A program made the position numbers and the translations under genes. This document shows, in pieces, positions 2,562 to 52,005 of a DNA stretch of 52,005 nucleotides. Positions within the stretch are counted from its first letter, which is position 1. Each line of letters begins with the position of its first letter. Location: the IMG/VR virus record IMGVR_UViG_3300013131_000059, positions 1 to 52,005 of that record; one strand, written 5' to 3'. Source of the stretch: a virus. Under the pieces are notes generated by a model. It saw nothing but the letters and a program-made list of their open reading frames with translations, was not told the DNA's origin and ran no database searches.

Positions 2562-2936
2562 ATGAATAACATACCTACAAGAAGAGAACGCCGAGCCGCG
2601 ATGAAATATCAAGGAATCTTAAAGATGAAAAGTAAATTACCTTTTAGTAAATGGTGTGAATTTACAACTAATACAATTAAAGCCGGAAAAGAAATTTTTG
2701 AGGCCAACAAAGATCGTATGGAAAAATCCATCGGAGAACAACTTGAAGCAATTGAGGCTAAGTTAATTTCATCATGGAGAGAGATGGGTTATAATGACTC
2801 TGAAATTGAGCAGTTAAGAGAAGCTAATGCAATCTTAACGGTAAGAGATATGGAAACCTGGAAAACTGATAAGAAGGTTGCTAGAAAAATAATGAAAGAA
2901 GTTCATCAAGAATTATTAAGCAGATCAAATGGTTAA
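2562..2936 (+). CDS. Hypothetical basic helical protein
   Basis: 124 residues from ATG 2562. An upstream GTG (2514) in the same frame would add 16 residues, but ATG 2562 has the A-rich leader typical of this genome ('aaaataaacatt') and the TAATATATAAT motif just before it. The N-terminus is basic ('NNIPTRRERRAAMKYQG') and the rest is predicted alpha-helical with many Lys and Glu and little hydrophobic core ('REMGYNDSEIEQLREANA'). It overlaps the next gene by 8 nt, so the two are probably translationally coupled. I do not recognise a family; the composition would suit a scaffold or chaperone-like helical protein, which is speculation. Confidence 0.55.
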   Translation: MNNIPTRRERRAAMKYQGILKMKSKLPFSKWCEFTTNTIKAGKEIFEANKDRMEKSIGEQLEAIEAKLISSWREMGYNDSEIEQLREANAILTVRDMETWKTDKKVARKIMKEVHQELLSRSNG

Positions 2937-3258
2937 GATAGTTTTAGAACCTGCAGGCAATGGTGTTATAAAAAGAGTCATTGATGATAATCATGGTGGA
3001 GGTAAAGAACAGTGGACTTCAACAGAGGTTTATGAAGACTCCGGTAATGATGCTGATAGACATCAATATATTATGAGATTCTTTTTTGATTTATGCGAGG
3101 ATTTAGGAATGAATCTCGGCAGTAAGTTTAATAAAGATGTTATTACAATCAGAACCGAGTGGGGTAGTCATTTTGAACCATCTGAAAAGGATCTTAACTC
3201 TAAAATAAAAGAGCTTGAAGCAAAGCTTCAATCCCTTAAAGAATGCAAGAAGTCTTAG
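2929..3258 (+). CDS. Hypothetical protein with C-terminal coiled coil
   Basis: 109 residues, overlapping the previous gene by 8 nt and the next by 16 nt. The first ~80 residues form a compact mixed domain ('VKIVLEPAGNGVIKRVIDDN', 'ADRHQYIMRFFFDLCEDLG'). The last ~25 are a charged heptad-like helix ('LNSKIKELEAKLQSLKE'). It ends at TAG 3256-3258. No family is recognised. The overlaps with both neighbours indicate one transcription unit and coupled translation. Confidence 0.55.
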   Translation: MVKIVLEPAGNGVIKRVIDDNHGGGKEQWTSTEVYEDSGNDADRHQYIMRFFFDLCEDLGMNLGSKFNKDVITIRTEWGSHFEPSEKDLNSKIKELEAKLQSLKECKKS

Positions 3259-3641
3259 AATTTTATTTTGTTTACTCAAAAGATGCAGTAAAGATTAAGG
3301 GGTTCATAGATTCGATACCTCGTAACATTGAGTGTATCAACTATATTGACATATATAATAAGCTAGCGAAAAATGATTACTTTCAATCCGAACCATCGGA
3401 TGCAGTAGTATCTTCATACCTAATGAGACAACTCCAAACGGCCGTTAGTAGAAATTCAACTATGAATATTTACTATGTACTAGGTAATATTGAAAAGGAT
3501 GTTATAGAAGGTATTCAGTCATATGTAAAGACACTAACAGATCGTGATATAGAGTTTAAGATATATCATACACCCGAAGTCCAGTTAAATGGTATGAAAA
3601 AACTCTTTTGTGATATCATACCGTTTGAAATTGATTATTAA
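3243..3641 (+). CDS. Hypothetical protein
   Basis: 132 residues, starting inside the previous gene and ending at TAA 3639-3641, which overlaps the next ATG by one base (TAATG). The sequence is a balanced alpha/beta mix ('MQEVLEFYFVYSKDAVKIKG', 'MNIYYVLGNIEKDVIEGIQ', 'MKKLFCDIIPFEIDY') consistent with a small globular protein. No catalytic motif is visible and I do not recognise it. Confidence 0.55.
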   Translation: MQEVLEFYFVYSKDAVKIKGFIDSIPRNIECINYIDIYNKLAKNDYFQSEPSDAVVSSYLMRQLQTAVSRNSTMNIYYVLGNIEKDVIEGIQSYVKTLTDRDIEFKIYHTPEVQLNGMKKLFCDIIPFEIDY

Positions 3642-10730: not shown

Positions 10731-11885
10731 ATGATTGAACAAGAAATTACGATCCGCGTAAGCGATGACCCGTTTGACACAAAAACATTTAAGGTTAGAG
10801 TACCTAAAGGAACAAAGATATTAAGTACTGAACCGTATGCATTAGAAGCATTAGCTCAATACGGCTTAATGGAATCTGTTGAAGACCAACTTAAGTTATG
10901 TGAAACAAGACAATCGTATACTACTGAAGGTATAATCATTTCAATTACAAAAGACAAAGAAGGAAATAAGGTAAGCGCGTTAATTGATATTGGTACAAAA
11001 TATACCGCAGCATGCTCTCTTCTTAAAGAACCTAAATCTATTCTTGAGCAATTAACGATTGGTATGATTGTTAATGTTAAAGTTAAACCAGGTGCTCATG
11101 GTATGGTTTCTGCATCTATCTCTGATGCAATAGATGAGGTTAAGACCAATGAGATAATGAATTCAATCGGTGATAAATCTGTTGCATTTACCGGTAAAAT
11201 TACAGAACTTATACATGGTGGTTATTGGGTTGAAGTAGGTGGAATTAAATGCTTTATGCCAGGATCATTAGCAGGATTAAATAAATTACATAATTTTGAA
11301 TCCTTGGTTGGCCAAGAACTTATAGTTATGCCAATTTCATTCTCTGATGAAAAAAATACAATCATTGTATCTCATCGAGCATATCTTAAGACTCTTATTC
11401 CAACTTCTCTCGACAATCTCCAAGAAAATATTAAAGAACCAATTACAGGATTTGTAACAGGTACAACTAAATTTGGTATATTTGCTGAATTTAATAGTTG
11501 CTTAACCGGTTTGATTCCAGATACTGTGCTTGATGATAAGACTCGAGAATTATTCCAGCGTGAAGGTATTAAGCCTGGCGATCCAATATCATTCTGGGTA
11601 CAAGAAATCATATCCGATAAAAAGATCATATTAACCCAACAGGGACCGCGCGAAGATTTATGGGATGGTGCATCTGATAAGTATAAACCAATGATGATCG
11701 CACCAGGAACCGTTACAAAGGTTACTAAATATGGAGCCTTTGTTGAGTTAGAAAAAGGCATCAGTGGTTTAATACATAAAACTAAGATGAAAGATACTGA
11801 ACTAAATCGTGGGGATAAAGTTTCAGTAAAGATTTTAAGTATCAGCCCTAGTGATAGAAAGATTACGATGGCGTTGACCGACTAA
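10731..11885 (+). CDS. Ribosomal protein S1-like protein with four S1 modules
   Basis: 384 residues with about four tandem S1 (OB-fold RNA-binding) modules. These lie at about 62-130, 150-216 ('FTGKITELIHGGYWVEVGG', ending 'NTIIVSHRAYLK'), 235-304 ('ITGFVTGTTKFGIFAEFNS') and 322-382 ('PGTVTKVTKYGAFVELEKG', then 'ISGLIHKTKM', 'GDKVSVKILSISPSDRKITM'). The last two show the canonical G-x-V-x-x-x-x-x-x-G-x-F-V-x-L core; the first is diverged. It most likely binds mRNA and/or the ribosome. Cellular S1 helps load mRNAs on the 30S subunit, notably those lacking SD sequences, and nearly all leaders in this phage are A-rich and SD-less. A role in favouring phage mRNAs is inference. The gene has its own 82-nt upstream gap and sits inside the tail region. 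Confidence 0.8.
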   Translation: MIEQEITIRVSDDPFDTKTFKVRVPKGTKILSTEPYALEALAQYGLMESVEDQLKLCETRQSYTTEGIIISITKDKEGNKVSALIDIGTKYTAACSLLKEPKSILEQLTIGMIVNVKVKPGAHGMVSASISDAIDEVKTNEIMNSIGDKSVAFTGKITELIHGGYWVEVGGIKCFMPGSLAGLNKLHNFESLVGQELIVMPISFSDEKNTIIVSHRAYLKTLIPTSLDNLQENIKEPITGFVTGTTKFGIFAEFNSCLTGLIPDTVLDDKTRELFQREGIKPGDPISFWVQEIISDKKIILTQQGPREDLWDGASDKYKPMMIAPGTVTKVTKYGAFVELEKGISGLIHKTKMKDTELNRGDKVSVKILSISPSDRKITMALTD

Positions 11886-14506: not shown

Positions 14507-16363
14507 ATGTCATTCTTTAGTAAAACAAGATTAAGAGCAAAGGAGTTATTCTTTGATGCATTTGAATTTCTCCAAAGAACATATGATCAGGCCTCTGAGG
14601 TGTTTACACCTGCATCACCATTTGGACAACTTTTAACAGTTGTCGCAAACTTAGGTGAGATGATTTTTTATTACATTGAATCTGTTGCAACGGAACTTAA
14701 TATTTATAGAGCAAGAAATATTGAATCAATTTATGGCCTTTCTAGATTAACTGGGCATGATCCTACGCGAGGTATTTCTGCCAGTGGTGTAATTGGATTA
14801 AGACTAAACACAAAGGCAGGAAATCTTTTTAGTGGTGATTATGTACAAATACTAAACGGTGCAAAATTAGAAATCGGACAAAATGGGTTAACATATTTCA
14901 TTAAGTTTGATAGTGACTTTATAAGACTTGAAAAAACTAATAAGCAATTTATTAATGTAGAATTGATTCAAGGGGAAATCGATTCACAAACTTTTACTGG
15001 AAGTGGTTTACCGTTACAAAGTTATAACTTGACTACAAAAGAACCAACAGACCAATACATGGTTACATTAACGGTTGATGGTGAAATGTGGAAAAAGGTG
15101 GATTCACTTTATGATATGGGGCCTGGCCATAAAAACTTTATGTGTAAGACTAGTGTAAATGGAGGATTAAGTATATTCTTTGGAAATAACCAGTTTGGGT
15201 ATTTACCGCCACTAGGATCATTAATTATTGTTACTTATGTTAAGACTCGAGGTGCGGCTGGAAATATAGGTGGCAAAAATCTCGATATTAAATTTGTTGA
15301 TCCTGGTACTGATTATCTAGGACAGGAAGTTGACCTAAATGAAGTTCTTTCATTAAACATTGTTAGAAACCCAAATTTTGGATCAAACAGCGAGGATCCT
15401 GCATTTACAAGATTGATTGCTCCGTATCAGAGTAATTCATTCGTACTAGCAAATCCTAATAATTACATTTACTATTTAAGTAAGTATGATTTCTTTTCTT
15501 TTGTAGATGCATATAATACAAAGGACGACAAATATATTAATGATGATAACATCATATATCTTTTTCTCATTCCTGACATTAATAAAAAAATTACAAGCGA
15601 TAAAGATTATTTTAATGTAGCACTTGAAGAATTTACTTTAACTCAGGATGAAAAAGATCAAGTGATTGAAATCTTAAATAAGAGTGGTCGACAAGTTGTT
15701 ACCGCCGAGGTCAGAATAAATGATCCTATTGTAAAGAAGTATGCTATTAATGTAGTTACTCGTTGGATTGAAGGTTATGATAAAGATCAATTAGTGACGG
15801 CAATAAGAAGCACTCTAAATGATTATTTCTTAAAAGTTAATAGAAGAGATCGCATTCCTAGATCTGACTTAATTTCATTGATAGAAGATATTCCTGGTAT
15901 AGATTCAGTTAATCTATTCTTTATATCTGAAGAAAATGAAAAAGCCATCAGAGATGGTTTCTATTTTGTTCCGGTGTATGGAATTGATCCGGCTACAGAT
16001 CAAAAGGTTTTAATTGAAAACAAAAAGATTGTATTAGCCGAAGGCGAAGATCCTCAATTAGGATTAGATGAATTTGGTGATATTGTAATAGAATCAGGTG
16101 ACTTAGTTGTAATAAGAGGTGGATGGGAAGATCGTAATGGAACTTATTTTGAAGAAATTCCAATAAAGAACGGTATTGGTTCTCTTAATGTATTCTTTAA
16201 GAATGTTACTCTTGATAATCTTTATAATAAGACACAGCAGGAAAGATTTGATAAGCTTAAGAGAAACCGAGGTACTACTATTGCAACCGGAAATAATTCC
16301 AGATCAACCAACACTGGAAGATTATTGGATAACACAACACAAAAAGTAATTAAGAATCTATAA
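14507..16363 (+). CDS. 6: Baseplate wedge protein gp6 / baseplate J-like
   Basis: 618 residues, similar in size to T4 gp6 (660). The N-terminus ('FFSKTRLRAKELFFDAFEFL', 'ASEVFTPASPFGQLLTVVAN', 'EMIFYYIESVATELNIYRAR') and 'SIYGLSRLTGHDPTRGISAS' match the start of gp6/gpJ baseplate proteins. There 'A-x-x-x-G-H-D-P-x-R-x-x-x-A-x-G' leads into the beta-rich central domain. The region at about 390-470 ('QVVTAEVRINDPIVKKYAIN', 'YDKDQLVTAIRSTLNDYFLK', 'RIPRSDLISLIEDIPGIDSV') is the typical C-terminal baseplate J segment. It directly follows gp25, as in T4. It forms the wedge dimers that ring the hub. The last ~40 residues are Asn/Thr/Arg-rich. Confidence 0.8.
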   Translation: MSFFSKTRLRAKELFFDAFEFLQRTYDQASEVFTPASPFGQLLTVVANLGEMIFYYIESVATELNIYRARNIESIYGLSRLTGHDPTRGISASGVIGLRLNTKAGNLFSGDYVQILNGAKLEIGQNGLTYFIKFDSDFIRLEKTNKQFINVELIQGEIDSQTFTGSGLPLQSYNLTTKEPTDQYMVTLTVDGEMWKKVDSLYDMGPGHKNFMCKTSVNGGLSIFFGNNQFGYLPPLGSLIIVTYVKTRGAAGNIGGKNLDIKFVDPGTDYLGQEVDLNEVLSLNIVRNPNFGSNSEDPAFTRLIAPYQSNSFVLANPNNYIYYLSKYDFFSFVDAYNTKDDKYINDDNIIYLFLIPDINKKITSDKDYFNVALEEFTLTQDEKDQVIEILNKSGRQVVTAEVRINDPIVKKYAINVVTRWIEGYDKDQLVTAIRSTLNDYFLKVNRRDRIPRSDLISLIEDIPGIDSVNLFFISEENEKAIRDGFYFVPVYGIDPATDQKVLIENKKIVLAEGEDPQLGLDEFGDIVIESGDLVVIRGGWEDRNGTYFEEIPIKNGIGSLNVFFKNVTLDNLYNKTQQERFDKLKRNRGTTIATGNNSRSTNTGRLLDNTTQKVIKNL

Positions 16364-16633: not shown

Positions 16634-19600
16634 ATGAATCGCTGGAGTCACATATACTTTTTTGATAAGAATGGTAAGTATTACAACTTTGATTATGATC
16701 AAACGAATGATATTTGGACAGGAAACATTTACTTACCACAAGTATCCACTGGATTATTTGAAGTAGGACAACTATTTATTCTGCAGGAATTTATTGACGC
16801 TTCAAATAATCTTAAAAAGTTTGGATATCCACATTCTTATGATCCTCACCCTGTTACCGGTCAAACTGGTTTTACTGGGCAAGGTAATACTGGTAGTTGT
16901 GATTGGATTGTTGAATGGGAAACGAGTGATCCTGAAGAAATCTTTTTATTTCAATTTAATGAAAACTTTGTCACTGGTACAAATTCTGCTCTTAGTATAG
17001 AAGTTGCAGGTCCACCTCTTGTTAAATACGATCAAATTGCTATTCCTCTTGATTATGATCCATATCAATACTTTGATGGAGATTACATAGTAACTAGTCA
17101 AATAAGATCACAAACACTACAGATTAACTTTACTATAAACTCGGATGAAGAAGATACATTTAAAAGAACTCTTATCATTAAGGATGAATGTACTGGTACA
17201 ACTGTTGCAAAATTAACTGTCTTTGGAGAAACCGTAGGTGAAGATGAACGCCTTAGAACAATGACAGAAAACTTTGGATATAGTATTGCTCTTAATGATA
17301 CTCATATCTTTAGAGATACTAATATCTATGAACAGAGACCAGACTTTATTGAACTAAACAGAAAGAGAAAAGAACTCATGATGGAAGGTCATAACATTTA
17401 CCCTTTCATTGGTTCATATAAAGGTCTTATAAATGCAATTAACTTTTTTGGGTATAACAATTTACAAGTAAAAGAGTTTTGGAAAAATATTAATAAGTCA
17501 TCGCCTAGATATGGAAAGTACATCCAATCTAATGCTATAAATCTATTTGATCCTGAGGTTAATTATAATGATATGACAATTACTCTTCCTAATAAAAACT
17601 TTAGGAAGACAAATATGTTTAGTCTTATCTATAAGATTAATCAGGTTAAAAACGGTTTTTATGATGAAGATGATCTTCCACAAACAGAAGAAGTATTTGA
17701 CTATACTTTGGAGGAAGTTCTTATTAAGCTTTTTGGATTAAAGAAAAAATTAGAAAAAGAATTCTTGCCACTTAATGCTCATATTAAAGACATTACTGGT
17801 GAGGCTGACTTTTTTGGATTAGCTGAATTAACTAATACAATAAGTAGGAATGATAAAAGAAATATTCAAGTAGGTATAGCGGCTGATTTTAAGGTTAGTC
17901 CTGATGGTTGTACATATTTAGAAGACCTAAGAAATTTTGCAGATTTTTGTTATCAGCAAGAAGGGGTTGTAGGTAGTGCAATAGTTAACTTTTGTAATGC
18001 CTATGTTGCTCCACTATTAGCATACGCCACGGGCGGTGGAAATAGTTCAGGAGTACAGACATATAGAAACTTAGTATTAGGACCTTACAATAGCGGTGAT
18101 CCATTACCGGCTCCACCAATTGGTCCTGATCCTAATAGTATTTTAGGCGCTCCTTTTGGTGCTCAGGTTTTTACTATTAATGATATTGCAAATGTATATG
18201 CTTCTTACTTTACGAGGTATTCTCCTAGTACTGTAACTGCATTGGCTGATAAACCAGGAATTCCTGTTGGTGCATTAGTGGTATTAGAAAATACTTCATT
18301 TGGTAACTTAACCTGGGATAACATTGAAATGACATGGAATCAGGTATCAAATGCAAATACATTTCATACATTTGATTTTGATCCACAAGGTGCTAATGTT
18401 GGTGATGAATTTAGAATATATGATCCTGTGACAGGTTCTCAAGCATCATATATAGTTCAACCTGGTGATACTGATAATACCGTAACCACCGCTCTCTATA
18501 ACCAATTAGTAAACTTAAAGAACAGTTTTGTGGCCCCTTGGTTGTTCTTTGATATTAGTCAAGTAACATTGAATTTTGGTACAGCAATAAGACTTTATGG
18601 AAGTAATACACAAAACATTCAGGTTGAGGTTATTCGTACACCAATAAGTGGGGCTGCATTTTTTAAGTTTGATAATCCTGGCGAAATTCTATATACTTGG
18701 AATTCAATCCAAAGATCAAACTTTAGTGAAATTGAATGGACTATCTTTAAAGAAGAAACTGAAACATCACCTGAATACTTTTTTACAATCAGAGGACCGA
18801 TAAACATTTACAACAGTTTACCAATAACTTTACCGTATGTTGGTACATATAATGTTGAAATGAAATTATTTGATATGTATAATAACATATCATCTATTGT
18901 TAAGTCAGATGCAATATGTATAGATAGTAAAGAAGTAGAATATTCTGGCTGGTATCAGGCCAGAAAGTATGAATATACTTGGCAGAATGAAGGTAAGTGG
19001 AAATGGGAAGATTATGGTTCCATGTGGAACCTTCCTATTGAACCAAGCGTGACATGGGATGAAGAAACACCAAGTTTATATGATTCTCTTGACAGAGTTA
19101 ACGCAATCTTAAATACATTTGGCTTAGGAGTTTCCCCAAACTTTAGACTACTAAATTACCAAGATAATGGAAACACCAGTTTCGTAGGACCTTACTATTG
19201 GGATAATCTTAATACTGGAGATTGGAATGATACTTATCATTTGTGGTGGGATCTTACTGCAATAACTGGGGATACGCCGGCATTTTTCCAATTCAAAGAA
19301 ATTGTTCCATTTTCATATTTAAGGGTTGTTGATCTTAAAGGTAATATAGGTTCATTTTTCTTTGATCCTTCTTTAACCACATTATCTCAGGTTGCAACAC
19401 AGCTTAATTTAAGTAACGATCCTATTCTTAATAAGTACATATATAATGTAGTACTTGATGCTACAAGTAATGAAAAATTTATACAAGCAGTATCAAGATA
19501 TTATGGCCAATACGGCGATTGGGAGGATGTTGATATTGTGGATGTTAATGGTAATCGTGTATGTGCTTCAACTGGAAACACTGGTAATACCGGAAATACA

Positions 19601-20023
19601 GGAAACACTGGTAATACCGGAAATACAGGAAACACTGGTAATACCGGAAATACAGGAAACACTGGTAATACCGGAAATACAGGAAACACTGGTACCGGTT
19701 GCCCTAGCATAATTTATAGAAAAGGCTTGCATCGTTCCAGTAATCCTACATGGAATACTGCTAAGTTTATTAACGATGGGAAGACTCTTCCTAAGATGAC
19801 ATGGCTTATGTTTGTATATGATAAATGCAAAATAAATGGAAAAGGTAAACCTAAATGGATAATACGAAATACTTCCAATCCTAACACATCTGATATATAT
19901 TTTGAAAGCAAGTACTTAACATACCTGTTTCAAGATCCCGGTAGATACGAGATAGGCTTAGAACTAACAGATTCTAATGGGAATAAATATAAAAAGGAAA
20001 GAAATATCCTAATCATAAAATAA
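16634..20023 (+). CDS. Large baseplate protein in the gp7 position, with glycine-triplet insertions
   Basis: 1129 residues. It sits two genes after gp6, where T4 has gp7 (1032 residues), so a wedge protein is likely. The central segment 'MMEGHNIYPFIGSYKGLINA' with 'INFFGYNNLQVKEFWKNIN' resembles the tail-protein-I-like motif of wedge proteins. Ig/PKD-like beta domains appear at about 690-800 ('VGTYNVEMKLFDMYNNIS') and at the C-terminus ('DPGRYEIGLELTDSNGNKYK'). A short T-G-x block lies at about 74-88. A longer T-G-N block at 981-1020 is encoded by a perfect 27-bp tandem repeat. Trp/Tyr-rich stretches ('WKWEDYGSMWNL') are unusual. The gp7 equivalence is by position and partial pattern only. 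Confidence 0.55.
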   Translation: MNRWSHIYFFDKNGKYYNFDYDQTNDIWTGNIYLPQVSTGLFEVGQLFILQEFIDASNNLKKFGYPHSYDPHPVTGQTGFTGQGNTGSCDWIVEWETSDPEEIFLFQFNENFVTGTNSALSIEVAGPPLVKYDQIAIPLDYDPYQYFDGDYIVTSQIRSQTLQINFTINSDEEDTFKRTLIIKDECTGTTVAKLTVFGETVGEDERLRTMTENFGYSIALNDTHIFRDTNIYEQRPDFIELNRKRKELMMEGHNIYPFIGSYKGLINAINFFGYNNLQVKEFWKNINKSSPRYGKYIQSNAINLFDPEVNYNDMTITLPNKNFRKTNMFSLIYKINQVKNGFYDEDDLPQTEEVFDYTLEEVLIKLFGLKKKLEKEFLPLNAHIKDITGEADFFGLAELTNTISRNDKRNIQVGIAADFKVSPDGCTYLEDLRNFADFCYQQEGVVGSAIVNFCNAYVAPLLAYATGGGNSSGVQTYRNLVLGPYNSGDPLPAPPIGPDPNSILGAPFGAQVFTINDIANVYASYFTRYSPSTVTALADKPGIPVGALVVLENTSFGNLTWDNIEMTWNQVSNANTFHTFDFDPQGANVGDEFRIYDPVTGSQASYIVQPGDTDNTVTTALYNQLVNLKNSFVAPWLFFDISQVTLNFGTAIRLYGSNTQNIQVEVIRTPISGAAFFKFDNPGEILYTWNSIQRSNFSEIEWTIFKEETETSPEYFFTIRGPINIYNSLPITLPYVGTYNVEMKLFDMYNNISSIVKSDAICIDSKEVEYSGWYQARKYEYTWQNEGKWKWEDYGSMWNLPIEPSVTWDEETPSLYDSLDRVNAILNTFGLGVSPNFRLLNYQDNGNTSFVGPYYWDNLNTGDWNDTYHLWWDLTAITGDTPAFFQFKEIVPFSYLRVVDLKGNIGSFFFDPSLTTLSQVATQLNLSNDPILNKYIYNVVLDATSNEKFIQAVSRYYGQYGDWEDVDIVDVNGNRVCASTGNTGNTGNTGNTGNTGNTGNTGNTGNTGNTGNTGNTGNTGTGCPSIIYRKGLHRSSNPTWNTAKFINDGKTLPKMTWLMFVYDKCKINGKGKPKWIIRNTSNPNTSDIYFESKYLTYLFQDPGRYEIGLELTDSNGNKYKKERNILIIK
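19574..19690 (+). repeat. 27-bp perfect tandem repeat (4.3 copies) encoding T-G-N triplets
   Basis: Four identical 27-bp units occupy 19574-19600, 19601-19627, 19628-19654 and 19655-19681, plus a 9-bp partial copy (19682-19690). Each unit encodes G-N-T-G-N-T-G-N-T using the same codons in every copy. Perfect identity between copies implies recent expansion or ongoing slippage/recombination. Copy-number changes in multiples of 27 bp keep the frame, so the spacer length in this virion protein could vary. Confidence 0.9.
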
Positions 20024-22843: not shown

Positions 22844-24763
22844 ATGGCTGAAAATAATTCAATATCAACACTGTTACCTGAACTGCTAAGACTTTTTAAT
22901 AATTCATTAGAGAGTTTTGAGAGAGTGAACCAGGCAATTACTTCTAGCCAGGAGTCAGTTACGATAAACATACAGAACGAGGATGGTACATTATCTCGCT
23001 TGACTATTCCGTCATTTGGGTACTTAAAGAATTCTATTAATCGTTTAGATAATAACATACAAACCATAACCAATGTCGGCGGTGGTGCAAGTTCAGTTAG
23101 ACTTGCAGATGGTACATTTAGAAAATTAGTATTAGCTAAGCTTCCAACCGAGGCGCCTAACCTAACTGCTATAAATTCTGTTAATGAATTCAATATAAAG
23201 CCTAACTGGTTTTTTGAAGAACTTATTAACCCTCTTCTTTACATATCATTTGATTTAACTGGTCAGGTTCCTATCGATACAGAAAAGGCAATTATTCAAA
23301 GATATATTTTAGACACCAATACTCAGGCTAAAATACAATTCTTTGAAAATACATTTAACGCGAAATCTGATATTGATTACTTTACATTTTTACAACAGAT
23401 AGTAGAGAGAAACATATCATATGTATTGGATGAGGCCGTTGTTGATTTACCGCCAAGAACAAAAAGATACACCGGTAACTTTAGTGTAACTAGGATATCG
23501 GATATTACTTTTACTGAGGATATTAATGGTGTTTCTGTCACATCTCAGAAGAAATCTTATAAGTTAAATAAGGTACTATATACAGATTCATTGGCTGACT
23601 TTGATGATACAATACAGTTAAAGGTAGGCGATAGTTTAGAGGTTGTATCTAACCCGGTTGATACGAGATACATTGTAAAGAGCGTTGATACTAGTACAAA
23701 TTCAGTTATACTTGATCTTGTTGAAGGGACTAAAGCAATTCAAATTGGAGCAGATGCTCTTAAGATTGGATCTGCTATAAATGATAATGTACAGGTTGAT
23801 GTTACCGTAGGATTTAATGAAAGATGCGTTGTATTCATTAAACCAATTGATCCAGATTCTAAGATACCTTCTGTTAATTGGTCTCCTGGTGCTGGATTCT
23901 ATACTAACACATTAACTACTATTGCCGCCGATGGCACACAACAAACTTTAGCTGACTATTATCAAAGATATGCAGTTGACTTTGGTAAATTCCTATTATC
24001 ATTTGCACAAGATAAATTACCAACATCAAGAGAAGGATTAATTCCTAATTCGCCATCTTTGGCTTCAACTGATTTTAAGGTTAAGTTGGTAAATGGACAG
24101 GTAACCAATTCTGATGCAATTGTACAATTACAGGATCTTAATAACCAGAAAAATACACTTACATCTAGTCTTAAAGAATTAGATACCGCAATTTCTCAGT
24201 ATAGAGCAAAAATTCAAACAACGAATTATAATACAAATGTTGAGAGGGATGCTGATAAGAATGCTCTTCAGGGTTTAATAACCGATAGAAGTACACAGGC
24301 AGAATTATATGCATCAATAGTAAAAGAAATTGATGCAAACAGTAAAGACAATTCTGTAGCAAGTATTGTTCCTAAATATAGAGTTCGTGGTTTTTGGCCA
24401 ATGCCTCAGGAGAAATCAACTCCAGCAACCGGACCACAATCTATTGTTAAGTTTAAGATAAGATATAGATATCTTTCTCAGGATGGTGCGGCTAATCCAG
24501 TTGATCAATTTACTTTTGTAGACGGTAATGGTACTAGCCAAGGTGCATTTTCAAATTATGAAATTATTGAAAGTGTATTAAGACCACGATCAAAAAATCC
24601 AATCACCGGTCTTTATCAATGGGATCCTATCAATAATGATAATGCAGATGCCGTTAATATTAATCAGATTGATTTACCTATTAGAAAGGGAGAGATTGTT
24701 GAATTCCAAGTTAAATCAATATCGGAAGCAGGATGGCCATCTAATCCATTAGAAAGTGAATAG
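22844..24763 (+). CDS. Virion protein, 5' part of an amber-interrupted ORF
   Basis: 639 residues ending at TAG 24761-24763. The N-terminal ~90 residues are helical ('ISTLLPELLRLFNNSLESFE', 'GYLKNSINRLDNNIQTI'). The middle contains beta domains and a coiled coil at about 425-500 ('VQLQDLNNQKNTLTSSLKEL'). The C-terminal ~110 residues look like a fibronectin-III-type domain ('YRVRGFWPMPQE', 'IVKFKIRYRYLSQDG', 'EIVEFQVKSISEAGWPSNPL'). Its expected last strand is missing and instead continues in the same frame after the TAG, into the next ORF. The stop is therefore probably a nonsense change or a programmed readthrough site rather than a natural gene end. Function: tail or baseplate component by context. 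Confidence 0.6.
   Translation: MAENNSISTLLPELLRLFNNSLESFERVNQAITSSQESVTINIQNEDGTLSRLTIPSFGYLKNSINRLDNNIQTITNVGGGASSVRLADGTFRKLVLAKLPTEAPNLTAINSVNEFNIKPNWFFEELINPLLYISFDLTGQVPIDTEKAIIQRYILDTNTQAKIQFFENTFNAKSDIDYFTFLQQIVERNISYVLDEAVVDLPPRTKRYTGNFSVTRISDITFTEDINGVSVTSQKKSYKLNKVLYTDSLADFDDTIQLKVGDSLEVVSNPVDTRYIVKSVDTSTNSVILDLVEGTKAIQIGADALKIGSAINDNVQVDVTVGFNERCVVFIKPIDPDSKIPSVNWSPGAGFYTNTLTTIAADGTQQTLADYYQRYAVDFGKFLLSFAQDKLPTSREGLIPNSPSLASTDFKVKLVNGQVTNSDAIVQLQDLNNQKNTLTSSLKELDTAISQYRAKIQTTNYNTNVERDADKNALQGLITDRSTQAELYASIVKEIDANSKDNSVASIVPKYRVRGFWPMPQEKSTPATGPQSIVKFKIRYRYLSQDGAANPVDQFTFVDGNGTSQGAFSNYEIIESVLRPRSKNPITGLYQWDPINNDNADAVNINQIDLPIRKGEIVEFQVKSISEAGWPSNPLESE
24761..24763 (+). other. In-frame TAG interrupting a ~1285-residue ORF
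   Basis: Both flanking ORFs are in the same frame, with no other stop between 22844 and 26701. The peptide across the stop reads 'NPLESE', stop, 'SDSVRVDFPADLS'. A Trp at the stop (TGG instead of TAG) would give 'SEWSDSVRVDFP', the usual last strand of a fibronectin-III-like domain. TAG ends other genes here (3258, 46013, 177), so it is not generally reassigned. Confidence 0.55.
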
Positions 24764-24778
24764 TCAGACTCGGTAAGA

Positions 24779-26701
24779 GTGGACTTTCCGGCAGATTTAA
24801 GTTCTGATAGTGCAGTCGAGGCAATACTTAATCAAAATAAACAAGACATTGCAAAAGTAAGTCTTGAGGAAAGTCTTAGAGCAAAAGGAATTGATCAACA
24901 TTTAAGCAGTTCATTTACTGCTAATGAAAAATATTATGCTCATACCTCTACGGTTATTGCTTCAGGATTCTTATCAGAGAATCAAACACCAGTAGATCTA
25001 TTTTCTAAACTGGTTGAAATGCAAGCTAGGCTTGACGAGTTCTCTGAAATTCTTAGAAATGCTGCAGGCGAACTTGTGGTTAATCTAATTGATGATCAAG
25101 GAAATACAATTGCAATTAAGCGTAATTCAACAACTAAAGTATTCGCAGGATTCTACTTTAATGAAGTTAAGAATCTTGATGACCCTAGAGGGTCAATCGT
25201 TACAAAGACCTTCTTTATTAATCTTTCTAATGCAGAACAAACAGGATTAAGATTAATTGCAAGAATCGCAGGATCTCGTACTCGTATGGTTAAGCAATCA
25301 GAATCACCTGGTTATACAAACAGTGAGGCTGCATCAGGTTCTGTTATTTTACCTGCAACATATTCATGGTTAGATAACAGTGCTGCTAATCAGAGCACAG
25401 GTAGAGCTACATTTGAAACGAATGACAATGATTATAATACAATTCGTAAATATGATTTGGCTCCACTAATCTTAACTAACCCAACAGTTACATCTGCTAA
25501 TAAGTTTGGTCAAGACGTTTCATTAGCGCCTTATCAATCTGCACAGAATAAAAATCAGTTTATATTCTCAAGATTTAAAGATGTTTCATCAGAGGAGACT
25601 TTTTACAACTACATAAATCCTGATGATGATTATACATTCAACCTAGATACTTGTGAAAACTTTTTCTTAAAGGATAACTTCTCATCAACTATAACCGCAG
25701 GTCAATTTATTTGGGGTGGTGGATTTGATGCGGCCGGTAATCCAACTACAGCTGCAACATATGATTTACCACAAGGTGATGATAGTATAGAGGTACATAT
25801 TAATCACCCATGGGTGGCATCTTATGCCGCATATAGAGCTGCATATGTATATGTAACGGGTGATACAACAACTTTACCTGCTTCATTAACATCTGCGATA
25901 GATTGTACGGCACCTACTGGTAATGGTACGGCTCGTGTATTATTTAGACATTCTAAATTTATACCATTAGCATCCGATCAACTTAAAGGTAAACAACAAT
26001 CAATTTATCTAAATGAAAATGTTGCTGACTTAAATCAATTGGCATCAACATTAATTAACTTTAATAGCGGACAAACTCTCCAGGCTAGCCCAACATTAAT
26101 GTTTATTCCTGCATTAAGTGATAATACAGATCCTAATTTTGTTGACTATTCAAGGAATACTAAAACATCATTTGAATCATTTGACCAGTATTTGCTAGGA
26201 AGACAAACGTGCGGATCTTATCTATTCATATCTGCGGATGATCATGAAATGATTCAGGTTGATGGAGACTCTGTTCAGTCTAGTAAGATTATTCAATTTG
26301 GAAGTCAAAATTCAATAAATATTCCTATGGTGTTTCAGTACAGAATGACTGACTATTTTGGTACTGGATCTGGTTCAGCTGGTGGTTTAGGAAATATAGC
26401 AGGAGATTCTACCGGTGCAATTACCAATTTAACATATGCTAAGAAAATTGGTTTTGATATCTGGCCAAATGCGGATAATGTTTATCAGTATGATATTGAA
26501 GTATTTGCTAAGTACAAATCCGATAATCTTAACGTCGATGTGTTCCCATCAATATCTGTTACAAAGGGACTTAGTGATCTTGAAAAAGTTATTTCTCAAC
26601 TTAGACCAAGTGTAGTAGAAACTAAAGTTAACCAAACGGTTAGATCAGGTGGTGTTATTCAAGGTGGTTTAACTAGAGGATCCGAGCTACAAAATCTATA
26701 A
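24779..26701 (+). CDS. Virion protein, 3' part of the amber-interrupted ORF
   Basis: 640 residues if started at GTG 24779; the open frame actually begins right after the TAG at 24764 and runs to TAA 26699-26701. The GTG has no A-rich leader like those before nearly all other genes, and the next in-frame ATG is about 80 residues in. The first residues ('VDFPADLSSDSAVEAILNQN') read as the continuation of the preceding domain. The body has helices ('LFSKLVEMQARLDEFSEILR') and long beta-rich stretches with phage-structural composition. I treat it as the C-terminal half of one ~1285-residue tail/baseplate protein, with independent translation from GTG as the alternative. Confidence 0.55.
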   Translation: MDFPADLSSDSAVEAILNQNKQDIAKVSLEESLRAKGIDQHLSSSFTANEKYYAHTSTVIASGFLSENQTPVDLFSKLVEMQARLDEFSEILRNAAGELVVNLIDDQGNTIAIKRNSTTKVFAGFYFNEVKNLDDPRGSIVTKTFFINLSNAEQTGLRLIARIAGSRTRMVKQSESPGYTNSEAASGSVILPATYSWLDNSAANQSTGRATFETNDNDYNTIRKYDLAPLILTNPTVTSANKFGQDVSLAPYQSAQNKNQFIFSRFKDVSSEETFYNYINPDDDYTFNLDTCENFFLKDNFSSTITAGQFIWGGGFDAAGNPTTAATYDLPQGDDSIEVHINHPWVASYAAYRAAYVYVTGDTTTLPASLTSAIDCTAPTGNGTARVLFRHSKFIPLASDQLKGKQQSIYLNENVADLNQLASTLINFNSGQTLQASPTLMFIPALSDNTDPNFVDYSRNTKTSFESFDQYLLGRQTCGSYLFISADDHEMIQVDGDSVQSSKIIQFGSQNSINIPMVFQYRMTDYFGTGSGSAGGLGNIAGDSTGAITNLTYAKKIGFDIWPNADNVYQYDIEVFAKYKSDNLNVDVFPSISVTKGLSDLEKVISQLRPSVVETKVNQTVRSGGVIQGGLTRGSELQNL

Positions 26702-33797: not shown

Positions 33798-34040
33798 ATG
33801 AATACTGAAGAAAGAATTGAACTTAAAGAATTTGTAGATCGTTATAAAGAAATTGAAACATCTATTGATTTAATGCAAAAGAGTATTGAGAGTTTAGCAA
33901 AAAAGAGAGATACTCTATTTGATGAACTTGATACTTTAAAGAAAAAGGAAGGTGATTTTATGAATCGCCTAATTGAAAAATATGGAGCATCTGAAGTTAC
34001 TCCCTATAAACTTTTACAAATATACGAAGAAGGCATATGA
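33798..34040 (+). CDS. Small coiled-coil protein
   Basis: 80 residues from ATG 33798, which follows 'taaaactaaaaat', the genome's usual leader. A TTG at 33774 in the same frame would overlap the preceding gene and is less likely. The protein is almost wholly helical and charged ('EERIELKEFVDRYKEIETSI', 'DLMQKSIESLAKKRDTLFDE'), a probable coiled coil. Its stop overlaps the next start (ATGA). The close coupling with the membrane protein that follows suggests a shared role, possibly lysis or tail-completion; unrecognised otherwise. Confidence 0.5.
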   Translation: MNTEERIELKEFVDRYKEIETSIDLMQKSIESLAKKRDTLFDELDTLKKKEGDFMNRLIEKYGASEVTPYKLLQIYEEGI

Positions 34041-34867
34041 TAAATGTAATTAAAAAGGTATTAGATTTTATCTTAAATCCAAAAAGCAGTAGACTCCTAT
34101 TAATAGGCAGTATTGTAATTCTTGTATTGCTACTATTAAGGCAATGTAACGTTGCAAATGATGCAAAGAGAGAGGCAGAAAGAAACCTACATAATTTATT
34201 AGCAGAACAGGATAGTGTTAGAACAATAAATTCAAAGCTAGGAAATGTTCTTGTAGAAAAATCTGCATTTCAGCTTAAGTATAACGAGTTAACAAAAGAC
34301 CAAGAAAAACTTATTGCTCAGCTTGAATTAGAAAAGAAAAAAAGACCCGGTGTTATAATTGAAACACAGGTTATGTATAAAGATACATCTATCTTTGTTC
34401 CGGTAAAAACTGAAATTAAAGATGGTTCAAGTTTTTTAACATTCTTATATAACCCAACTTTACCAGGATCTAATAGATTAAGTATTGGTGGAAAATTACC
34501 ATATACACTTAAAGGTGATACTTTGGAAGACGGTACTTACTATCCTTCAATAACTGCAGGTAATGCTCAATTATCAATTGAACAGAGAATAGATTTAGTT
34601 ACAGGTCTTTATAGAGATCCTAAAACAAACAGACTTTATGTAAGAGCATCAACCTCGTTTCCAGGTATAACGTTTAATGATATACAGGCATTGGATATGG
34701 TTGATGATCCTGGGACTAGAAAGGCATTAAAGGCCGAGAGAAAAACTTTTGGATTAGGCTTTACTTTAGGATACGGCGCAGTGGTGCTTAATGGTAGTAT
34801 TGTACCAGGACCTATGATTGGTGTAGGTTTACATTACACTCCTAAGTGGTTACAGTGGGGTAAATAA
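34037..34867 (+). CDS. Membrane-anchored coiled-coil protein, spanin-like candidate
   Basis: 276 residues. One membrane segment lies near the N-terminus (about 19-34, 'RLLLIGSIVILVLLLL') after a basic stretch, giving N-in topology. A coiled coil follows at about 42-100 ('AERNLHNLLAEQDSVRTINS', 'LTKDQEKLIAQLELEKKKR'), then a beta-rich C-terminal region ending 'GAVVLNGSIVPGPMIGVGLH' and 'YTPKWLQWGK', which resembles a small outer-membrane-type beta structure. This anchor, coil and glycine-rich beta end is, from memory, common in phages of Bacteroidota, where it is a candidate Rz/spanin-like lysis protein. It is not a lipoprotein (no lipobox at Cys37). The spanin role is inferred; a virion role is also possible because virion genes flank it. 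Confidence 0.45.
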   Translation: MINVIKKVLDFILNPKSSRLLLIGSIVILVLLLLRQCNVANDAKREAERNLHNLLAEQDSVRTINSKLGNVLVEKSAFQLKYNELTKDQEKLIAQLELEKKKRPGVIIETQVMYKDTSIFVPVKTEIKDGSSFLTFLYNPTLPGSNRLSIGGKLPYTLKGDTLEDGTYYPSITAGNAQLSIEQRIDLVTGLYRDPKTNRLYVRASTSFPGITFNDIQALDMVDDPGTRKALKAERKTFGLGFTLGYGAVVLNGSIVPGPMIGVGLHYTPKWLQWGK

Positions 34868-44741: not shown

Positions 44742-46013
44742 ATGAAATATATTAAACTATTTGAACAATGGCTGGCCGATAAAAGCCAGCCATTACTTTT
44801 AGAGGGTGGCGCTGCTGGTCACATGAATCATCCTTTTGATGATAAGGGGCTAACCTTTGGTGACTTTAAAAGTATTATTGATGCCGGTCTTCGTGGTGAA
44901 TTAAACTTTGAAGAAGATCCTACCGAAAAGACTGATGGGCAAAACGTATGGGCTACTATTCAAGACGGTCAGGTAAAATTTGCAAGAAATAAAGGTGAAA
45001 GTATTTCTCCAATGTCTCTTTCTGATTTTAAGCAAAAATTCCAGGATCATCCAAGTGCAACTGTTAGGGATACTTTTCAGTATGCTGCACAAGACCTTGC
45101 AGATCTTTTGATTAAATTACCTGCCAAAGTTCAACAGGATACATTTGATAACGGTAAGAACTTTATGAATATGGAACTTATCTATTCAAGAAATCCTAAT
45201 GTTATTAATTATGATACTGATGTTATTCAATTTCATAACATAACTAAAACAGATGGTAACGGTAATGTAATAGGTACTGATGCTAGACCTGCTAAAGAAA
45301 TTCCTGCTATTTTATCAAAGGTTCAAGCTGACTTAGGAAAAACATTTAAGATTATTCCTCCTAGAATAATTCAGTTACAACAGGATATAGACTTTAGCCA
45401 AAATAAGCAAAAGTTTATTAATAAAGTAATTGAACTCCAAAAGAGATATGGTCTTAATGATGGTGATGAAGTATCAAGGTATCATGAAATGTGGTGGAGA
45501 GAATTAATTGATAAGGAATTTCCAAATGCTCCACAGGATATTAAAGAAGGTCTTTTGAGAAGGTGGGCATATGATGATAAGACCACGTTAAATATGAGAT
45601 CCTTGGATAAGACATTAACACCAGACGAAGCTGAAAAGATTAAGAAGTTTGATAAGGAAGATGTAAAGAAAAAGTACAAAGAAAACATTAGACCATTTGA
45701 AGATCTATTCCTTGAACTAGGTTCAGTTATATTAAGTAATGCCAGTAATTTCTTAGCAGCAGATCCAACCGGTGAAACCGCCAGACTTCGTGCATATCTA
45801 CAAGCCGAGGCCGATAAGATTAGAAAAACTGGTGGAGCCGATCAAATCAGAAAGGTTGAAGATGAATTGGCCAGACTTGACAGAATTGGTGGAATAAATT
45901 CAATTTTTCCAACTGAAGGGATTGTTTTCAGATATAATGGAAAACTTTATAAGTTAACCGGAACCTTTGCTGCACTTAACCAATTACTCGGAATAATTAA
46001 GTACGGTAGATAG
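44742..46013 (+). CDS. Ligase-superfamily nucleotidyltransferase (RNA ligase-like)
   Basis: 423 residues. Covalent nucleotidyltransferase motifs are visible: motif I 'TEKTDGQN' (Lys63-x-Asp-Gly66) as the AMP/GMP-accepting lysine; a motif III-like Glu145 in 'MNMELIYSRNP'; motif IV 'TEGIVFRYNG' (Glu392-Gly393); and motif V 'KLYKLTG' (Lys401, Lys404). Between them lies a long helical insertion (about 200-380), so the layout is larger than a minimal ligase. The N-terminus 'MKYIKLFEQWLADK' looks like the capsid-targeting tags of its neighbours, followed by 'LLLEGG'. The substrate (RNA end, DNA or protein) is unknown. Ligase-type chemistry is likely; packaging in the head is inferred. Confidence 0.6.
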   Translation: MKYIKLFEQWLADKSQPLLLEGGAAGHMNHPFDDKGLTFGDFKSIIDAGLRGELNFEEDPTEKTDGQNVWATIQDGQVKFARNKGESISPMSLSDFKQKFQDHPSATVRDTFQYAAQDLADLLIKLPAKVQQDTFDNGKNFMNMELIYSRNPNVINYDTDVIQFHNITKTDGNGNVIGTDARPAKEIPAILSKVQADLGKTFKIIPPRIIQLQQDIDFSQNKQKFINKVIELQKRYGLNDGDEVSRYHEMWWRELIDKEFPNAPQDIKEGLLRRWAYDDKTTLNMRSLDKTLTPDEAEKIKKFDKEDVKKKYKENIRPFEDLFLELGSVILSNASNFLAADPTGETARLRAYLQAEADKIRKTGGADQIRKVEDELARLDRIGGINSIFPTEGIVFRYNGKLYKLTGTFAALNQLLGIIKYGR

Positions 46014-50755: not shown

Positions 50756-52005
50756 ATGGCCATACTTCCTAAATATCAATTAAAGCAATTATTTGAATCA
50801 GGTGATCTAATTACACAAAGTACATTAGATCAATTCATTGACGCATCTTATAACCCTACACTTGTTGCGGGGACTAATATAGTTATTACCAAGGTTGATA
50901 CACCTTCAGGTTCAACTATTACAATATCAACAATCGGAAATAGCGGAAGTGCTGGCGCAACCGGGGCAACAGGTATTAGTGGTGCTACTGGTGCCACTGG
51001 ACAATTTGGTAATCAAGGATTTCAGGGTGGTACTGGTCCAGGTGGCCCAGGTGGAGTAGGTTCAACTGGAGCCACTGGTGCTACGGGTGCCATTGGTCAA
51101 CTAGGATTTCAGGGAAGTACTGGCCCAGGAGGTCCTGGTGGAGTAGGTTCAACTGGAGCCACTGGTGCAACCGGCGGCGCAGGTGCAACCGGCGGCGCAG
51201 GTGCAACTGGTCAACAAGGTTTTCAAGGAGGTACTGGTATAGGAGGTCCGGGTGGAGTAGGTTCTTCTGGATCTACTGGAGCTACTGGTGCTACCGGTAC
51301 TGGTGGTCGTCAAGGTTCTACTGGTTCTACTGGTGCAACAGGAGATCAAGGCTTTCGAGGTTCAACTGGTAATCAAGGAAGTATAGGTTTAGAAGGAAGT
51401 ACAGGTTTCCAAGGTGGAACTGGAGCAACTGGAAATACAGGTAATCAAGGAAGTACAGGATTAGAAGGTTCAACTGGTTATCAAGGCGGAACAGGAGTTA
51501 ACGGAAATCAAGGTTCTCAGGGTGCAACTGGTGATCAAGGTTTTAAGGGCTCCACTGGATTAGAAGGATCAACTGGTTTCCAAGGCGGAACTGGACCTGA
51601 TGGTTCAAGTGGTAATCAAGGTTTCCAAGGCGGAACTGGTTCAAATGGTGAACAAGGTTTCCAGGGTGCAACTGGTAATCAAGGTTCTCAAGGTTTCCAA
51701 GGAAGTACCGGTGGAGATGGTTCAAGTGGTAATCAAGGTTTCCAGGGTGCAACTGGTGAACAAGGTTCAAGTGGTTTCCAAGGTGGAACTGGAGCAACTG
51801 GTTTCCAAGGTGCAACTGGTTCTCAAGGTTCTCAAGGTTTCCAAGGTGGAACCGGTGGAGATGGTTCAAGTGGTAATCAAGGTTTCCAAGGCGGAACTGG
51901 ACCTGATGGATCAACTGGTTTCCAGGGTGCAACTGGTAATCAAGGTTCTCAAGGTTTCCAAGGAAGTACAGGTGGAGATGGTTTAAGTGGTTTCCAAGGT
52001 TTTCA
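50756..52005 (+). CDS. Long collagen-like fibre protein (3' end outside window)
   Basis: An open frame from ATG 50756 to the last base with no stop; over 416 residues are visible. The N-terminal ~60 residues ('MAILPKYQLKQLFESGDLIT', then 'STLDQFIDASYNPTLVAGTN', 'IVITKVDTPSGSTITIST') are an attachment domain. From Gly61 onward every third residue is Gly without interruption (~118 triplets). Common triplets are G-A-T, G-S-T, G-F-Q, G-N-Q, G-G-T and G-S-S, with very little proline. Thr in the third position suggests a glycosylatable or Thr-stabilised triple helix, as proposed for bacterial collagens. It probably forms a long trimeric fibre or whisker. Longer DNA repeats recur within it. Confidence 0.8.
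   Translation, partial: MAILPKYQLKQLFESGDLITQSTLDQFIDASYNPTLVAGTNIVITKVDTPSGSTITISTIGNSGSAGATGATGISGATGATGQFGNQGFQGGTGPGGPGGVGSTGATGATGAIGQLGFQGSTGPGGPGGVGSTGATGATGGAGATGGAGATGQQGFQGGTGIGGPGGVGSSGSTGATGATGTGGRQGSTGSTGATGDQGFRGSTGNQGSIGLEGSTGFQGGTGATGNTGNQGSTGLEGSTGYQGGTGVNGNQGSQGATGDQGFKGSTGLEGSTGFQGGTGPDGSSGNQGFQGGTGSNGEQGFQGATGNQGSQGFQGSTGGDGSSGNQGFQGATGEQGSSGFQGGTGATGFQGATGSQGSQGFQGGTGGDGSSGNQGFQGGTGPDGSTGFQGATGNQGSQGFQGSTGGDGLSGFQGF
51590..52005 (+). repeat. Nested collagen-triplet DNA repeats
   Basis: Near-identical segments of 25-40 bp, encoding the sequence 'GDGSSGNQGFQG' and 'GATGNQGSQGFQGSTG', recur around 51712, 51855 and 51970, interspersed with related units. Near-identity at the DNA level implies recent duplication or gene conversion, and the region is prone to length change and to mis-assembly. 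Confidence 0.75.

Follow-up and report, generated by a model that had tools for sequence, protein, structure and literature searches.

One reading frame interrupted by a single TAG

Does the in-frame TAG at positions 24761–24763 of this virus sequence separate two genes, does it allow two forms of one protein to be made, or is it a defect within a single gene? We addressed this question in the complete 52,005-base virus record IMGVR_UViG_3300013131_000059, the whole of which we refer to as the window. Frame analysis confirmed the original prediction that two ORFs share one frame and are parted by this TAG alone. Indeed, the frame running from the ATG at 22844 to the TAA at 26699–26701 comprises 1285 codons, and its sole interruption is the TAG (plus strand) at codon 640. 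The 5′ part (22844–24763, plus strand) consists of 639 codons followed by the TAG. The frame reopens at 24764, straight after the stop, and the 3′ part (24764–26701, plus strand) consists of 645 open codons followed by TAA. The downstream ORF as listed (24779–26701; 640 aa) starts with GTG, ends at this TAA and lies in the same frame as the ORF at 22844–24763.

Both parts match the same protein family profile, phrog_29329: the 5′ half at profile positions 7–629 (E = 2.1e-89) and the 3′ half at the adjoining positions 631–793 (E = 7.6e-52). Because the matches of the two halves adjoin on one profile, and because all 80 homologues described below align through the site, they represent one gene and not chance neighbors. 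The proper annotation of this gene is a single disrupted CDS, not two CDSs.

Codon 640 in related phages

We searched IMG/VR with the read-through protein as the query and kept 80 loci (66–97% identical). All 80 homologues align straight across the site and present an aromatic codon at position 640, without any stop: 61 carry TGG, 16 TAT, two TAC and one TTC. In the closest loci (97% protein identity), GAA TGG TCT is found where the window reads GAA TAG TCA. Trp was also found at this site in eight more distant phage records (LR756500.1, MaF61, pT24, PAU, LR745206.1, Lak-A1, PTm1 and PTm5), and the codon is TGG itself in all of the first six. The expectation that a Trp (TGG) would stand at the stop was borne out, and none of the relatives examined has the gene split at this position.

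A pattern scan of IMG/VR with TAA or TAG at the codon-640 position returned 39 stretches, none of them a homologue, and the same pattern with TGG returned at least 76 homologues; the pattern also demands nearby conserved bases and would miss diverged copies. Scanning IMG/VR around the exact site gave no second copy of the window's haplotype, and a search of the genome collection gave no relative of the window. A second copy of the TAG haplotype, in a very near genome, could lie beyond the records searched. Judged from these alignments, this record alone carries the stop, none of the relatives examined sharing it. It is most simply explained by a single-base change from TGG to TAG, a direction that we infer.

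Among known phages, PAU gp264 (Sphingomonas), BPT24_178 of pT24 (Tenacibaculum) and ORF153 of MaF61 (Flavobacterium) are homologous to the protein along most of its length. These phrog_29329-like proteins present Trp at the aligned position and are encoded by single uninterrupted CDSs (1076–1094 aa), in contrast to the window's copy with its TAG at codon 640.

Identity of the interrupted protein

The original prediction described the product as a virion protein. The surrounding genes make this likely: a baseplate wedge protein (Baseplate_J) is encoded at 14507–16363 (plus strand; phrog_219, E = 1.7e-23; PF04865, E = 1.2e-4) and a protein with matches to tail fibres (collagen-like; phrog_5073, phrog_6320 and others) at 16634–20023 (plus strand). 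In pT24, the homologous gene directly follows a head-completion gene and precedes the gene of a tail-collar protein. This synteny suggests that the product is probably a virion protein of the baseplate or tail-fibre region, although its role itself is deduced from gene order. The source would be a large myovirus, with Bacteroidota as the presumed host group.

The sequence around the stop had also been read as one domain resembling fibronectin type III (FN3). We found no match to FN3 in Pfam, and a sequence search of solved structures gave no match. An AlphaFold model of part of an intact relative (mean pLDDT of 67, i.e., moderate confidence) presents a long helical hairpin and then a beta-rich region, with the Trp of codon 640 placed between the final two strands of the latter. 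Foldseek searches of this model against the PDB returned weak matches, among which FN3-bearing receptor ectodomains were prominent (best E = 4e-3). An FN3-like domain spanning the stop is plausible, though no more than that, from the moderate-confidence beta-rich model and the weak structural matches, against the lack of a Pfam match.

Selection on the two halves and quality of the contig

We compared the two halves of the gene with their counterparts in the relative L003 and obtained nearly identical dN/dS values before and after the stop (respectively, 0.050 and 0.054). Comparisons among the relatives behaved in the same way. Both halves are under purifying selection. The 3′ half shows no decay, so that either the change arose very recently, or it is not real, or this half is still made.

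We then considered in-frame stops elsewhere. Only three were found in 420,041 aligned codons from homologues of this gene and of its neighbors; all three concern gene 33774 and were attributed to a listed TTG start that is probably too early. The genes of the window, compared with the four nearest relatives, presented no in-frame stops save for the small ORF at 5–202 and the ORF at 51600, both of which lie at the edges of the window and are probably not genes. The window presents private changes at only three of 1677 otherwise invariant residues, a count that falls inside the spread seen for the other contigs and argues against an error-laden contig. The scarcity of private changes and the intact neighboring genes indicate that the TAG is an isolated anomaly rather than a sign of a poor contig.

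A private change within one ancestral gene

We consider it very probable that the locus represents one ancestral gene of ~1285 codons in which the conserved aromatic codon 640 was converted from TGG to TAG by a private, non-programmed single-base change. This change may well be a real nonsense mutation in the genome, at a likelihood slightly short of even. It may just as well be a base or consensus error in the assembled sequence, which likewise falls a little below an even chance. Both origins had been rightly proposed as candidates. In a population of lytic phages, real stops in so conserved a gene would be expected only rarely, and a consensus error within an otherwise clean contig is likewise unusual.

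If the base is real, translation would stop after 639 residues, leaving the FN3-like domain without its final strand and the protein without its C-terminal half, so that the genome would be defective or dependent on complementation. A consensus error, by contrast, would mean a normal protein. Overall, the TAG resembles an ordinary, isolated defect rather than a new way to make two forms of a protein. This case calls for caution: when a metagenomic phage contig presents a lone in-frame stop, relatives should be compared before recoding is called.

Amber suppression and the use of TAG

Among the alternatives, the one that survives best is amber suppression, although we regard it as improbable. 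A tRNA with a CUA anticodon, encoded by the phage outside the 52 kb piece, by a co-infecting phage or by the host, would then place an amino acid at the TAG and yield the full-length protein with or without the short form. The constraint on the downstream half is consistent with such a scenario, and the tRNA clusters of the relatives sit away from this region. In addition, the distant phage LR756500.1 (462 kb) possesses a tRNA that folds well and carries a CUA anticodon, i.e., that of an amber suppressor (L115:4653–4721, minus strand; 43.7 bits, above the Rfam cut-off), and suppression therefore stays a minority option. There is also precedent in other phages: recoding of TAG to glutamine in structural proteins of crAss-like phages was shown by proteomics (PMC9523058) and tRNAs with a CTA anticodon were reported in code-15 jumbo phages (PMC13037316).

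However, the search for a suppressor tRNA that the original prediction had proposed for the full genome gave none within the 52,005 bases of the window, and no CUA anticodon was found among the tRNAs of 16 relative records, all of which are fragments. A DNA pattern for CUA tRNAs matched the distant phages at chance level and was uninformative. Moreover, only one TAG interrupts any gene of the window, TAG is found at codon 640 in none of the relatives examined, and TAG terminates the gene at 2929–3258 (in the window and in relatives G002 and G003) and the gene at 44742–46013 (in the window and in G004). These shared ends show that TAG serves as a normal stop codon in this lineage, and even the distant LR756500.1 closes 22 of the 441 ORFs examined with it. 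The combination of many in-frame TAGs and no TAG terminators, which marks a TAG-recoded (code 15) genome, is not observed in the window. The difference is apparent relative to Prevotella phage Lak-A1 (code 15, TAG = glutamine), whose protein is homologous to the first ~706 residues: the gene of Lak-A1 contains 18 in-frame TAGs under table 11, yet presents TGG at this site, whereas the window has a single TAG in the gene and ends other genes with this codon. We give correspondingly little credence to a scenario in which the record captured a recent amber allele of a virion gene and in which synthesis of the complete protein would require a CUA suppressor tRNA of the phage, a co-infecting phage or the host. 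Were suppression to be shown, the record would capture the beginnings of stop-codon recoding beyond the known code-15 phages.

Gene fission and programmed readthrough

It is very unlikely that the gene has split into two separately translated proteins, the second of which would start at GTG 24779 or at a later ATG. The records of Tenacibaculum phages PTm1 and PTm5 do annotate this gene as three and two ORFs, respectively, but the breaks lie at other positions, where A-runs have apparently lost 1 nt, and both phages present Trp at this site; we rejected them as a precedent. The original prediction had noted that the downstream ORF lacks a convincing leader, and this was confirmed: the GTG at 24779–24781 (plus strand) is unlikely to be a real start, as the 20 bases upstream of it are the least AT-rich of 41 gene starts compared (60% A+T relative to a mean of 81%). 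The next in-frame ATG occurs only at codon 726 (25019), and its leader is also unconvincing. Finally, the cut would lie within a domain.

Intrinsic programmed readthrough, in which a leaky stop would set the proportion of the short to the long product, is similarly far from probable. Qβ A1 and the TMV replicase are genes with programmed stop-codon readthrough, and the window resembles them in that its single in-frame stop precedes a lengthy frame that is open and, here, constrained. In contrast to those genes, the stop of the window is conserved in none of the 80 homologues and no stimulatory context was found. The base after the stop (+4) is a U, which usually provides a good termination context; we found no stable RNA structure downstream (fold z-scores from +0.3 to +0.9), and the stop falls inside a conserved domain. 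Together with the terminator role of TAG and the lack of a CUA tRNA in the window and among the tRNA clusters of close relatives, these observations leave the suggestion that amber readthrough produces a short and a long form of the protein unsupported.

Additional observations in the window and its relatives

The apparent deletions of the Tenacibaculum phages are located at L348:2787–2916 and 3591–3640 in PTm1 and in L349 in PTm5; one is common to both phages and one is specific to PTm1. They could be either sequencing errors or real frameshifts. In LR756500.1, an ORF of 596 aa (L336:7767–9558, minus strand) ends with TGA and is followed by 387 in-frame open codons without an early Met, and it is possible that this represents another split gene.

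We also identified tRNA-like RNAs at L108:6065–6153 (plus strand), L110:8066–8174 (plus strand) and G008:37436–37524 (minus strand). Their acceptor, D and T arms are intact, and a longer hairpin replaces the normal anticodon arm. Their acceptor stems differ in sequence and still pair, and the three RNAs have GGGACGC and GUGACGC in common. ARAGORN made no call on any of them.

Finally, three regions of the window differ from its relatives or present repeated matches. The gene at 34037–34867 shares only ~37% identity with the corresponding gene of the nearest relatives, with flanking genes at 95–98%, and may have been locally replaced or be fast-evolving. Around position 11880, the nearest relatives shift from ~84% to 92% nucleotide identity with the window and carry ~450 extra bases, making this a possible recombination joint. 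Between positions 51181 and 52005, the window aligns repeatedly, with overlaps, to the end of the relative record G003. These matches suggest repeats, probably within a fibre gene that runs off the window.
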